Assembly (NCBI GenBank): GCA_025360865.1
Contig: JANYBG010000036.1
Location: 1-57,811, forward strand
DNA length: 57,811 nucleotides
Origin: Pseudomonadota bacterium
Lineage (GTDB): Bacteria > Pseudomonadota > Gammaproteobacteria > Steroidobacterales > Steroidobacteraceae
Direction of reading: 5' to 3'
Shown: positions 13,070 to 57,811 of the stretch, piece after piece
How the letters are laid out: each line of letters opens with the position of its first letter
Position numbering within the stretch: position 1 is the stretch's first letter
Made by a program: the position numbers and the translations under genes
The notes under the pieces: generated by a model
What the model saw: only the letters and a program-made list of their open reading frames with translations
Databases searched by the model: none
What the model was told of the DNA's origin: nothing

Positions 13070-15844
13070 TTAGAAGGTGTATTTCAGATTGACATAGAAG
13101 TTCCGCAACAATGGGTCTGCGATGAACGCGTTGTAGCCCGACGCGAAGTTGCTTGTCGATGCGTTGGTGTACGGCGGACTCGTGTTGAACAGATTTCTGA
13201 TTCCAAACAACACGGTCAGTTTTTCGTTCGGCTTGACGCTCGCGTAACCATCAACGAGCGAATAGCTGCCCACTTTCCGCTGATTGCCGTTGCCATCAGG
13301 GAATTCATCGACGTACCCCGAGTAGAAGCGGTTGCTCAGTCCGGCACCCCACATCGCCCCCGGGCTCGTCCAGTCGACCCTCACGTTATGCTGCCACCTG
13401 AACGCCGGGTTGATGTTTTGGATTTGCAGATTGCCCACCAGGTTGAGGAGCGGACCGCCGTTGTATTGCTGCTGTAGAAACGTCGTGACCGCGGTCCCTT
13501 CCAGATCCTCGCGGAACGTCCCGATCGAGGTGTGCTGCGCGTATTGGATGCTTAAGTCGAACCCGTCGGTGGTGATCCTGCCCGTATTCGAATTTTGCAA
13601 TTTTATGTATCCACACGTCGGGGCCGTGTAAGGATTGCAGGCTAGGGCCTCATTGATCGTCGGCGTGAGTGTCCCACTCGAGTTCGGCACGATATAGCTC
13701 GCGAACGTGGTGGGATCACCGTAAATCGCCGCGGCCGGAACCGTTCCAATCCTGTTCTTGAGGAGGATTCTGTAATAGTCCAGCGTAATGCCCAGATCCG
13801 GTACCGGCGAGACGATGACACCGAAGTCGAAGTTTTGCGATGTTTCGGGCGTCAGGTTGCGGTTTCCGCCGTACAAGCCAATGCCCTGCGACTGGCAAAC
13901 ACTTGGGGTAAACAACGTGTTGTAGCTGCCCGGCTGGCAGAACGGGTTTCCTTGTCCGATGGTGCCGCCGCTCGACGCCGCCAGGTAAGGCGGCGAGTAC
14001 AGGTTGTAGAGGGTGGGCGCACGGAAGCCGGTGGAGGCGGTTCCCCTGAAGGTCAGGAAACTGGCCGGCTGATAGCGCACCGACAGCTTCGCGTTGTTGG
14101 TCCTGCCGAAATCGCTGTATCGGTCCTGACGATCCGAAATATCCAGATCGAGGCGCTGGGAGATCGGCACGTCCAGCTCGACGAAAGCCGCCTGTACCTG
14201 GCGACTCCCTTCGACCGCACTGTCCGTAAGTCCGGTGCCGGCCTTAGTGAGGTCGTTATACGGCGTGGTCGCGTACGCGTAGCGTTCGCCGTTCACGGTG
14301 AAGCCGAGCGCCACGGTCGCCGGGGTGCCCGCATTGAACGCATCGCCCAGCGGGTGGCTGGCGTGGCCGTCGACGCTCCAACGTTTGTCTTCGCCGAGCG
14401 CGTATACGCCGTTTATATACGACGAGTCGATCAAAGCCTGTCCGGCCGCGCTCTGGGGACCAAAGGGGTTGATCAGATTGCTGAGGACGCCGCCGGGCGC
14501 AAGCACCGCCTCATTGGGATAGCCCCCGGTATTGCGATTGTCGTTGGTGTTCTTGCTCAAATTTAAGTCCGTAGCGTAATCCCAGCCAGCGTTACTGCCG
14601 GAGAACGTCAACAGCACCCGCTGCTCGACATTGACGTTGCCGTTGAAGCGGTAGTTGTTGGGGTCGCTCCAGGCCACCTGGATCGGATTGATCAGATCCG
14701 GCGGCGCCCCGCAGGTCCCGCCCCTGTTATCGCATGTCAGCTGAGACGCCTTCGGGAAGTAGGGACTCGCCGGGTCCATTCCGAATTGGTAGAAGATGGG
14801 GCCGGCATAACCATTCACTTCGGTCTGGGTATAGAAGTACTGCAGCTGCACTTGGTTGGCGCCCGGCAGCGCCTTGGTGAAGGCTACCATCCCGGAAAGC
14901 GCATGGGACTCCGGGAGCAGGTCCGTCGCGGCGGAATACCGGTATGAGCAGTCCCCGAAATACGTGGTCAGTTGCGGATTGCCCGCGCAGGCCGGATAGC
15001 CCGACTGCCATATGTTGCCGTTGTTGTCCAGTACCACCCCGGGCCACGAGCCGTAATAGTTGGTATTGGTGGCACCCCGCGCCGGATCAAAAGCCGTGGC
15101 GGAAAACGGCCGCTGCGTCGCCTGGAGCTCACGTTGCGTGCTGTAACTTCCCGTGATCATGAAATTATAGCCGTCGCTCGGCAGATCCCCGTGCCCGAAG
15201 GTGACATCCGCGTAGCCCGAGACACCGCCGGCTCGCTGCGGGCGGTCGAAATTGAGCTGGACCTGGGCCCCCTGGTAATTCTTCTTGGTGATGAAGTTGA
15301 TCACGCCGGCGATCGCGTCCGAGCCGTACAGCGCCGAGGCGCCTTCCCGAAGCACCTGGACGCTGTCTATGGCCGAGAATGGAATACCACTAACGTCGAC
15401 CCCAAGGCCGCTGTTGGCATTGTTGGACAGCCGTTCTCCATCAAGCAGCACCAGGGTGCGGCCGTCGCCCAAGCCGCGGAAGTTGGCGTAGGTACCGCCT
15501 CCGGTAAACGTCCCCACGGCTGAGACGATGTTGGTCGACGGGTTGGCGCCGGTCAGCGTACTCAGCACCTGCTCCGTGTTCACGATACCCAGGTCCTTGA
15601 GGGCGTCCGCCTTGAGGATGGTGATGGCCTCCGCGGTTTCGGCATTGACCCGCTTGATCATGGAGCCCGTGACGACGACTTCTTGCAGCTCGGGGGTCTG
15701 AGAAGTGCTCGGCGCCTCTTGCGCGACCGCGGCTAAGCTCATCAGCGATCCGCCGATGGCGAGCGCGCCGGCTACCTGCGGAATCAGTCGACGAAAACTC
15801 CTAGGCCATTCGTAGGCACGGCGTCCATGGTGTGCTGTTTGCAT
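13070..15844 (-). CDS. TonB-dependent receptor
   Basis: ELQEVVVTGSMIKRVNAETAEAI TonB-box/plug region, LREGASALYGSDAIAGVINFITKK, C-terminal FYVNLKYTF; start chosen at MQTAHHGRR. Confidence 0.93.
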   Translation of the reverse strand: MQTAHHGRRAYEWPRSFRRLIPQVAGALAIGGSLMSLAAVAQEAPSTSQTPELQEVVVTGSMIKRVNAETAEAITILKADALKDLGIVNTEQVLSTLTGANPSTNIVSAVGTFTGGGTYANFRGLGDGRTLVLLDGERLSNNANSGLGVDVSGIPFSAIDSVQVLREGASALYGSDAIAGVINFITKKNYQGAQVQLNFDRPQRAGGVSGYADVTFGHGDLPSDGYNFMITGSYSTQRELQATQRPFSATAFDPARGATNTNYYGSWPGVVLDNNGNIWQSGYPACAGNPQLTTYFGDCSYRYSAATDLLPESHALSGMVAFTKALPGANQVQLQYFYTQTEVNGYAGPIFYQFGMDPASPYFPKASQLTCDNRGGTCGAPPDLINPIQVAWSDPNNYRFNGNVNVEQRVLLTFSGSNAGWDYATDLNLSKNTNDNRNTGGYPNEAVLAPGGVLSNLINPFGPQSAAGQALIDSSYINGVYALGEDKRWSVDGHASHPLGDAFNAGTPATVALGFTVNGERYAYATTPYNDLTKAGTGLTDSAVEGSRQVQAAFVELDVPISQRLDLDISDRQDRYSDFGRTNNAKLSVRYQPASFLTFRGTASTGFRAPTLYNLYSPPYLAASSGGTIGQGNPFCQPGSYNTLFTPSVCQSQGIGLYGGNRNLTPETSQNFDFGVIVSPVPDLGITLDYYRILLKNRIGTVPAAAIYGDPTTFASYIVPNSSGTLTPTINEALACNPYTAPTCGYIKLQNSNTGRITTDGFDLSIQYAQHTSIGTFREDLEGTAVTTFLQQQYNGGPLLNLVGNLQIQNINPAFRWQHNVRVDWTSPGAMWGAGLSNRFYSGYVDEFPDGNGNQRKVGSYSLVDGYASVKPNEKLTVLFGIRNLFNTSPPYTNASTSNFASGYNAFIADPLLRNFYVNLKYTF

Positions 15845-55329: not shown

Positions 55330-55905
55330 ATGAGCCGTTTCAACCACGTGCAGTTCGTGATCAGCGCCGCGGCACCAGCGCAGTTTCCGGCCGACCTCGG
55401 GACCGAGGTTGCCTTCGTGGGCCGCTCCAACGCCGGCAAGTCGAGCGCCATCAACGCCATCGTTCAGCGCCAAGGCCTGGCCCGTACCAGCAAGACCCCC
55501 GGGCGCACGCAGCTGCTCAACTTTTTCGAGCTGGGCCCACAGCGGCGGCTGGTCGACCTGCCGGGTTACGGTTACGCGAACGTGCCAGAGAAACACCGCA
55601 GCACGTGGCCGCCCCTGATCAATGCCCTGCGTGAGCGCGCCTCGCTCAAGGGACTCTTCGTGATCGTGGATGCGCGCCGGGGCGTGAAGGACGGCGACGA
55701 GGGCCTGCTGGAATGGGCGCAGCCCACCCATCGGGTGCACGTGCTTCTTTCAAAGGCCGACAAGCTCACCCGGAACGAGGCTGCCGCGGCGCTGCGCAGC
55801 GCCTCGGAGGCACTCGCTGGACGCGCGAGCGTGCAGCTGTTCTCCGCGCTCAGGGGCAACGGCGTCGAGGAAGCCCAGGACACGCTCCGCGCCTGGCTTG
55901 CGTGA
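55330..55905 (+). CDS. engB: Ribosome biogenesis GTPase EngB/YihA
   Basis: VAFVGRSNAGKSSAINAI, RTSKTPGRTQLLNFF, VDLPGYGYA; start at 55330. Confidence 0.95.
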   Translation: MSRFNHVQFVISAAAPAQFPADLGTEVAFVGRSNAGKSSAINAIVQRQGLARTSKTPGRTQLLNFFELGPQRRLVDLPGYGYANVPEKHRSTWPPLINALRERASLKGLFVIVDARRGVKDGDEGLLEWAQPTHRVHVLLSKADKLTRNEAAAALRSASEALAGRASVQLFSALRGNGVEEAQDTLRAWLA

Positions 55906-55915
55906 GTCCCTCCCC

Positions 55916-56030
55916 AATAAAAATGCCCCGGCGGTTTCGCTAGAAGCCGCCGGGGCCGACTAACCCGGTACAGTCTTGATGAACCGGGTTGACCCGCTCA
56001 GGGAGGGAAGCGGGGAGTGCTAGGCACTCG
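55916..56030 (-). ncRNA. Candidate structured small RNA with four tandem hairpins and a terminator, between polA and engB
   Basis: Minus-strand hairpins GAGTGC/GCACTC, CCCGCT/AGCGGG, AACCCGGT/ACCGGGTT and terminator GCCCCGGCGG/CCGCCGGGGC followed by ATTTTTATT. Confidence 0.55.
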
Positions 56031-56395
56031 TATGGTTTGATGGCGACACGGCCGCCGAGTTCCAATCCTCGTGCAAAAATCTCTTTTCAAATCATAAGTT
56101 TGTGGTACGAACTGTATCATTTTGGCAACACAGTCGTGACTGAAGAAGCTTCATAGATGCGGACAGGGAAAATCCCTTTCCCATCAATGTTCGACATGGT
56201 GACGCGGCTGTTCCCGAACGCGAGGCTCCGTTGGCAAACCGCACCAATGCCAGTCGGTGGCCCACGTGGGCCGTGTCTTCTGGTGCGCGGTATGGCCCGC
56301 CGCCGCGCTTCTCGATCCGTGGGGCAGGGGAATTCAACGGCGAATCGATGGCGCCGCCCGCGATTCCCGCCGCCGTCGAGCGACCAGCACCGTCA

Positions 56396-57811
56396 CTAGT
56401 GGGCCTCGTCCCAGTTGCCGCCCGAGCCGACATCCACGCGCAGCGGTACGCTTAAGGATGCGGCCTGCACCATGCACTCGCGCACGGCGGCCGTAAGCTC
56501 GGTTACCCGGTCGGCAGGCACCTCGAACACGAGCTCGTCATGCACCTGCATGATCAGCCGGGCGGGCGTCCGGGTGCGCGTGAGCCAGGCGTCGATGGCG
56601 ATCATCGCCCGCTTGATGATGTCCGCCGCGGTGCCCTGCATCGGGGCGTTGATCGCGCTGCGCTCGGCGTACTGGCGCATCTGCGCGTTTCCCGAGCGGA
56701 TATCCGGCAGGTACAGCCGCCGCCCGAACACGGTCTCCACGTAGCCGGTCTCGCGCGCCTGTGCGCGCGTGTTATCCATGAAGGCCTTCACTCCCGGGTA
56801 GCGCTGGAAGTAGCGCTCCACGTAATGCGCGGCGGCGCCGCGCTCGATGCCGAGGTTGCGCGCGAGCCCGAACGCGCTCATGCCATAGATGAGCCCGAAG
56901 TTGATCATCTTCGCCGTGCGGCGCTGGTCGGCGTTGACCGCGGCCAGTTCAACGCCGAAGACCTCCGCCGCGGTCGCCTGGTGCACGTCACGGTCCTCGG
57001 CGAAGGCTGCGCGCAGGCTGTCATCATCCGACAGGTGCGCCATGATGCGCAGCTCGATCTGCGAATAGTCCGCCGCGAGCAGCACCTGCCCCGGCGGGGC
57101 GATGAAGCTCTGGCGTATGCGCCGTCCCTCGGTTCGTCGCACCGGTATGTTCTGCAGGTTCGGTTCCACGGAGGACAGGCGCCCGGTGGCGGCGACCGCT
57201 TGGGCGTAGGAGGTGTGGATGCGCCCGGTGCGTTCGTTCACCAGCTCCGGGAGCTTGTCGGTGTAGGTGGACTTGAGCTTGGCGAGCGCGCGGTGCTCGA
57301 GCACGATCTTCGGCAGCGCGTAGTTCTGCGCGAGCTCCTCGAGCACGTCTTCGGCGGTGGAGGGCTGGCCGGTGGGCGTGCGCCGCTTCACCGGCAGCTG
57401 CAGACGCTCGAACAGGATCTGCTGCAGCTGGCGCGGGGACTCGATGTTGAATTCATGCCCGGCTTCCTTGTGGGCCTGCAGCAGCAACTCCTGCAGCTGG
57501 CGCGCGAACTCGCGGCTCTGCGCGCGCAGCAGCTCGCGGTCCACCAGCACCCCATGGCGTTCCATGCTGACCAGCACTGGCACCAGTGGCTGTTCGCACT
57601 CCTGGTACAGGCGCGCCAGGCTCGGCACGCCCTGCAGCTGCGCCCACAGCGCCTGGTGCAGGCGCAGGGTGACGTCGGCATGCTCGGCGGCGTATTCACT
57701 GGCGCGCTCGATGGATACCTGGTCGAAGCAGATCCGCTTGGCGCCCTTCCCGGCGACCTCGGCGTAAAAGCCGCGGTTGGTGTTGATCTGCTCGACCACC
57801 GACTCGACCGT
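56396..57811 (-). CDS. polA: DNA polymerase I (5' part outside window)
   Basis: LLAADYSQIELRIMAHLSDD, RRTAKMINFGLIYGMSAFGLA, QGTAADIIKRAMI, QVHDELVFEVP; ORF runs to the window edge. Confidence 0.96.
   Translation of the reverse strand, partial: TVESVVEQINTNRGFYAEVAGKGAKRICFDQVSIERASEYAAEHADVTLRLHQALWAQLQGVPSLARLYQECEQPLVPVLVSMERHGVLVDRELLRAQSREFARQLQELLLQAHKEAGHEFNIESPRQLQQILFERLQLPVKRRTPTGQPSTAEDVLEELAQNYALPKIVLEHRALAKLKSTYTDKLPELVNERTGRIHTSYAQAVAATGRLSSVEPNLQNIPVRRTEGRRIRQSFIAPPGQVLLAADYSQIELRIMAHLSDDDSLRAAFAEDRDVHQATAAEVFGVELAAVNADQRRTAKMINFGLIYGMSAFGLARNLGIERGAAAHYVERYFQRYPGVKAFMDNTRAQARETGYVETVFGRRLYLPDIRSGNAQMRQYAERSAINAPMQGTAADIIKRAMIAIDAWLTRTRTPARLIMQVHDELVFEVPADRVTELTAAVRECMVQAASLSVPLRVDVGSGGNWDEAH

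Follow-up and report, generated by a model that had tools for sequence, protein, structure and literature searches.

An RF02837 (anti-hemB) small RNA with a predicted sigma-E type promoter between polA and engB in a Steroidobacteraceae genome

The window, i.e. the whole stretch of 57,811 nt that was analysed, carries four hairpins on its minus strand between polA and engB. They are best explained, with a probability of about 0.8, as a single sRNA of about 117 nt that belongs to the RF02837 family, has its own sigma-E type promoter, is induced by RpoE and represses in trans via the loop of its second hairpin. The structure, its covariation, the family membership, the conserved locus, the promoter motif and the presence of rpoE and hfq were all computed.

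Results

Four stem-loops are packed into 105 nt of the minus strand, exactly where a preceding sequence-only reading had placed four inverted repeats. Hairpin 1 (GAGTGC-CTA-GCACTC; 56015-56029, arms 56029-56024 and 56020-56015) was recognised as an inverted repeat and is supported by the fold and by covariation. Hairpin 2 (55993-56014) has arms at 56014-56009 and 55998-55993, to which the fold adds a seventh pair, G-U, and its CU-rich loop, UCCCUCCCUG, is the proposed mRNA-pairing site; the loop is invariant in the genus and the stem covaries. Hairpin 3 (55962-55990, arms 55990-55980 and 55972-55962) carries a loop around AAGACUGU. Hairpin 4 (arms 55956-55943 and 55938-55925) is followed by ATTTTTATT, and together they form an intrinsic terminator (55916-55956), as judged by the sequence, the fold and covariation of the stem. 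The T run is found 3' of the terminator stem on the minus strand and is absent on the plus strand; hence, the terminator serves the sRNA and not engB.

The predicted transcript extends from 56032 to 55916 on the minus strand; its 5' end was deduced from the position of the -10 element (see below) and its 3' end was placed at the T run. Its minimum free energy is -59.7 kcal/mol, as compared with -37.6 +/- 3.5 kcal/mol in dinucleotide shuffles (z -6.4), and 0 of 200 shuffles were as stable. A short reading frame in the RNA is not conserved among the relatives compared, since the length of the hairpin-1 loop differs between them. Just past the terminator (55907-55920), the minus strand reads GGGGAGGGAC, which is complementary to the hairpin-2 loop; this sequence is absent in the relatives glanced at and probably occurs by chance.

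A match to the window RNA was found in 79 of 99 relatives. The genus-level alignment comprises 41 sequences, including one of a sister genus; hairpin 2 (CCCGCTTCCCTCCCTGAGCGGG) does not vary in it, whereas hairpin 1 and the terminator covary. All four stems covary over 29 order-wide sequences, with double changes at 17 of 25 pairs (8.1 +/- 1.6 when shuffled) and a covariation score of 0.319 (0.176 when shuffled), and the pairing is lost when the partners are slid. Class-wide, double changes occur at 25 of 25 pairs and the score is 0.509, as compared with 0.184 +/- 0.007, for an alignment that had been fitted to the covariance model R1 (see below). The covariation shows that the stems are more than chance and, together with the fold and the family match given below, bears out the earlier proposal of a structured minus-strand sRNA at polA-engB. 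The hairpin-2 loop CUCCCU is invariant over the 29 order-wide sequences, partly by construction, as this motif was also used to cut them out. GGAACT combined with an identical copy of hairpin 2 is further present in Leeia oryzae DSM 17879, as well as in MAGs that bear the labels Nevskiaceae, Burkholderiales, Bordetella and Aromatoleum.

A scan with Rfam 15 gave one sRNA match in the window, to RF02837 (anti-hemB; Burkholderia RNA 7), at 56016-55917 on the minus strand (52.7 bits, E 1.8e-9). The match covers model positions 1-81 of 81 and lies above the gathering cut-off of 49.5 bits by a small margin. The window RNA is a member of this known, uncharacterised family and not of a new one. Thus, the 'candidate new sRNA' of the sequence-only reading is a real sRNA but not a new family, the Rfam match having been missed in that reading.

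The RF02837 member of B. cenocepacia J2315, ncS04, is 105 nt long, with a 3' end determined by RACE and dRNA-seq, and is visible on Northern blots; it was reported to bind Hfq, its level was unchanged across seven conditions and no function was assigned to it (PMC5688073, PMC4603805). The open-access literature consulted gives no function for RF02837, and none of the papers searched contains the accession; the name anti-hemB appears in three of them, one being a Bradyrhizobium paper (PMC6515984). The window RNA shares with anti-hemB/ncS04 the full-length model match, the C-rich hairpin-2 loop and the terminator. It differs from the Burkholderiales copy examined here (L112), which lies near hemB and lacks the sigma-E motif, in its polA-engB position and in the sigma-E type promoter upstream.

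The 3' part of polA (56396-57811, minus strand), an ORF that adjoins the sRNA in relatives, runs off the window; its stop is at 56396 and the stems lie 364 nt downstream on the same strand. The convergent downstream neighbour is engB (55330-55905, plus strand; start codon by inspection), the ORF product of which matches solved EngB structures. Nearly all order-level matches likewise occupy the polA-engB interval and are convergent with engB. When a sample of 274 genomes from the class Gammaproteobacteria was searched with the covariance model R1, built from the 29-sequence order-wide alignment, 126 of them (101 of 222 genera) proved to contain members. This number is probably a lower bound, because a laxer search (E up to 0.01) of 40 non-matching genomes gave a match in 7. 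In a phylum-wide sample, 5 of 200 genomes matched R1, one of them outside the class; this match (G545, 34 bits) was not accepted, with polA and engB not near.

Within the short flanks fetched, both polA and engB were found at 30 of 67 class-level loci, one of the two at 24 and neither at 13; hence polA and/or engB accompany 54 loci. Of the class-level loci scanned, only about ten pass the Rfam cut-off. Weak off-locus matches to RF02837 (for example L053, L054 and L056-L058), which lack polA and engB, were taken as chance. Some genomes contain two to five tandem copies of the sRNA; such arrays (L101, 1952-2710; L105, 1553-2299; L102, L103, L104 and L106) have a sigma-E type motif mostly before each copy. 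Two tandem copies in one genus (L104, 3804-4162; L106, 3800-4158) are near tmRNA and not near polA/engB. The copy L112 (1993-2104, minus strand) of genome G205, which is Burkholderiales-like by our own reading, was placed near hemB and away from polA/engB from the ORF list. This location fits the name of the family, and the copy could be the relocated state behind it.

Directly upstream of the stems is the sequence GGAACTC-N16-TCAAA (56063-56036, minus strand), made up of a sigma-E (RpoE/AlgU) type -35 element, GGAACT (56058-56063), followed by C, and a -10 element, TCAAA (56036-56040), 16 nt after GGAACTC. RpoE/AlgU-type ECF sigma factors recognise the consensus GGAACTT-N16-TC, and the window sequence has this architecture of RpoE-dependent sRNA promoters, which the sequence-only reading had overlooked. 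With a maximum of 10 points for the motif, looked for within 60 nt around the 5' end, at least 9 points were reached by 40 of 40 sequences in the genus (shuffled 0.9%), 21 of 23 in the order (0.2%) and 57 of 83 copies in the class (0.1%). The spacing is fixed at all three levels, the spacer being 16 in 108 of 131 scored loci. The genome encodes RpoE (TIGR02939, 282 bits), and its own rpoE gene has GAACTT-N16-TCTAT just upstream, with the motif and spacing as at the sRNA. Since the motif is conserved and the rpoE gene carries a matching one, the predicted sigma-E control of the sRNA is well supported by the sequence comparison. Upstream of the -35 element (56064-56100) there is an A/T-rich TTTGAAAAGAGATTTTTGC, similar in several relatives, which is possibly an UP element.

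The conserved promoter bears on the suggestion, also considered in the sequence-only reading, that the stems are nothing more than polA's 3' UTR and terminator, with neither a promoter nor a trans function of their own. They do follow polA on the same strand at a distance of 364 nt and end in a strong terminator. However, a promoter motif at fixed spacing is conserved between polA and the covarying stems, the RNA matches RF02837, tandem copies generally have separate promoters, copies exist away from polA, and the loop is conserved more than the stems, all of which makes this explanation highly improbable.

It is improbable, too, that a genuine RF02837 sRNA is transcribed here from an upstream housekeeping sigma-70 promoter and not by RpoE. 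A promoter-like site was detected at 56120-56091, ncS04 was unchanged in seven conditions, and L112 has no sigma-E motif, as would suit such a promoter; however, the site is a 9/12 match, whereas the sigma-E motif is near-universal at fixed spacing in the genus and order and matches the upstream region of rpoE. The missing motif, if true of Burkholderia, may explain why ncS04 looked constitutive.

At the class level, the hairpin-2 loop contains CUCCC in 67 of 84 sequences, the hairpin-3 loop CCCC in 68 and the terminator loop CCCC in 44. The earlier remark that the second loop could pair with Shine-Dalgarno sequences is correct as regards complementarity and, because the loop keeps CUCCC, an anti-Shine-Dalgarno role is plausible. 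The window lineage, an uncultured Steroidobacteraceae genus, is without the second C-rich loop: in hairpin 3 it is replaced by a conserved GAGACCUGU loop. The AGAC of this loop can pair with GUCU 3' of the stem in 40 of 41 genus members, and in the window (55955-55990, minus strand) a short pseudoknot could arise between AAGACU of the loop and the AGUC that directly follows the stem. The partners are nearly invariant in the genus, hence the pseudoknot is without covariation support and was not adopted.

GGGAGGG-N3-9-ATG occurs 33 times, as compared with 7 times for the reversed control, which mostly reflects Shine-Dalgarno sites. In the genome of the window and for one target class, a 7-nt match was no more frequent among TonB-receptor genes (2 of 29; a third hit, C126, was left out, as it proved not to be the start of the gene) than among control genes (2 of 41), although a rank test of match lengths between the two sets gave p = 0.03. 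The window itself encodes a TonB-dependent receptor plug domain (15302-15643, minus strand), one of 31 in the genome.

Discussion

Most likely, the RF02837 sRNA of the window is an RpoE-induced, probably Hfq-assisted, trans-acting repressor. Its transcription would start at a sigma-E (RpoE/AlgU) type promoter of its own in the polA-engB interval and stop at the intrinsic terminator. Envelope stress would switch the sRNA on via RpoE. Pairing of the exposed hairpin-2 loop with G-rich ribosome-binding sites, probably aided by Hfq, would then block translation of the mRNAs. The hfq gene is present in the genome; expression, RpoE control and Hfq binding in this organism, as well as the pairing mechanism and the targets, we infer. 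Points against this explanation are the small Rfam margin, the lack of target enrichment, the absence of the motif at L112 and the reported Hfq independence of sX13 (see below).

An RpoE-controlled sRNA could also use its C-rich loop to bind a protein or another RNA, and not ribosome-binding sites. The absence of target enrichment in the single class tested and the exchange of the second C-rich loop for a different conserved loop in the genus would accord with such a route; however, for sX13 the action of C-rich loops on G-rich motifs in mRNAs has been demonstrated (PMC3771888), and this alternative is considered rather unlikely.

The sequence-only reading had compared the locus with those of Spot 42 and Pseudomonas ErsA. 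Its statement that there is no obvious sequence match to Spot 42 was confirmed: RF00021 does not match anywhere in the window, the R1 score at spf (6.6 bits) is noise, and homology was rejected. RF00021 was also not found in any of the 274 sampled class genomes. Spot 42 (spf) of E. coli K-12 lies in the same interval and orientation, and the locus is the only feature in common; Spot 42 is under cAMP-CRP and not sigma-E controlled.

The comparison with ErsA proved apt as regards interval, orientation and promoter type. The polA-engB interval of Pseudomonadaceae holds RF01719 (Pseudomon-1/ErsA), preceded by GAACTTTC...GTCA; the assignment of the genomes to Pseudomonadaceae is based on RF01719 matches and on a DsbA chain, in our reading that of P. 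aeruginosa, to which the identity is 71-82%. ErsA of P. aeruginosa is driven by sigma-22 (PMC5819304), and the window RNA has an ErsA-like locus with a promoter of this sigma-22/sigma-E type. On 21 Pseudomonadaceae loci (138 kb, both strands), R1 gave 11 weak matches (E 0.0004 to 0.2), all in the interval, adjoining engB and on the strand of ErsA. The two RNAs also share C-rich hairpin loops. They are likely to have a common origin, given that they agree in locus, orientation, promoter type and the C-rich loop of the terminator. ErsA has no evident equivalent of hairpin 2, and the RF01719 model gave no match in the window; hence the window RNA was not filed as ErsA.

The Xanthomonas sRNA sX13 is located downstream of polA, is structured, has C-rich apical loops that repress mRNAs bearing G-rich motifs near the start codon, and was reported to be Hfq-independent and constitutive (PMC3771888). 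By this published description, it resembles the window RNA in the polA locus and C-rich loops. sX13 and ErsA are not mentioned together in the open-access literature searched.

RF02837 was known, and its sigma-E control, its class-wide extent and its probable kinship with ErsA seem to be unreported in the open-access literature searched. Chances are about even that anti-hemB, ErsA and the uncatalogued copies, possibly with sX13 and even Spot 42, derive from one sigma-E controlled, C-rich-loop sRNA in an early gammaproteobacterial polA-engB interval, the Burkholderia anti-hemB having been relocated with loss of RpoE control. As the Rfam cut-off catches only a minority of copies, many genomes carry an unannotated RF02837-type copy. 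The findings bear on the question left open in PMC3771888 of whether C-rich-loop sRNAs are present at the polA locus of other bacteria. Through its conserved RpoE-type promoter, RF02837 acquires a role in envelope stress that can be tested, as well as a connection to ErsA.
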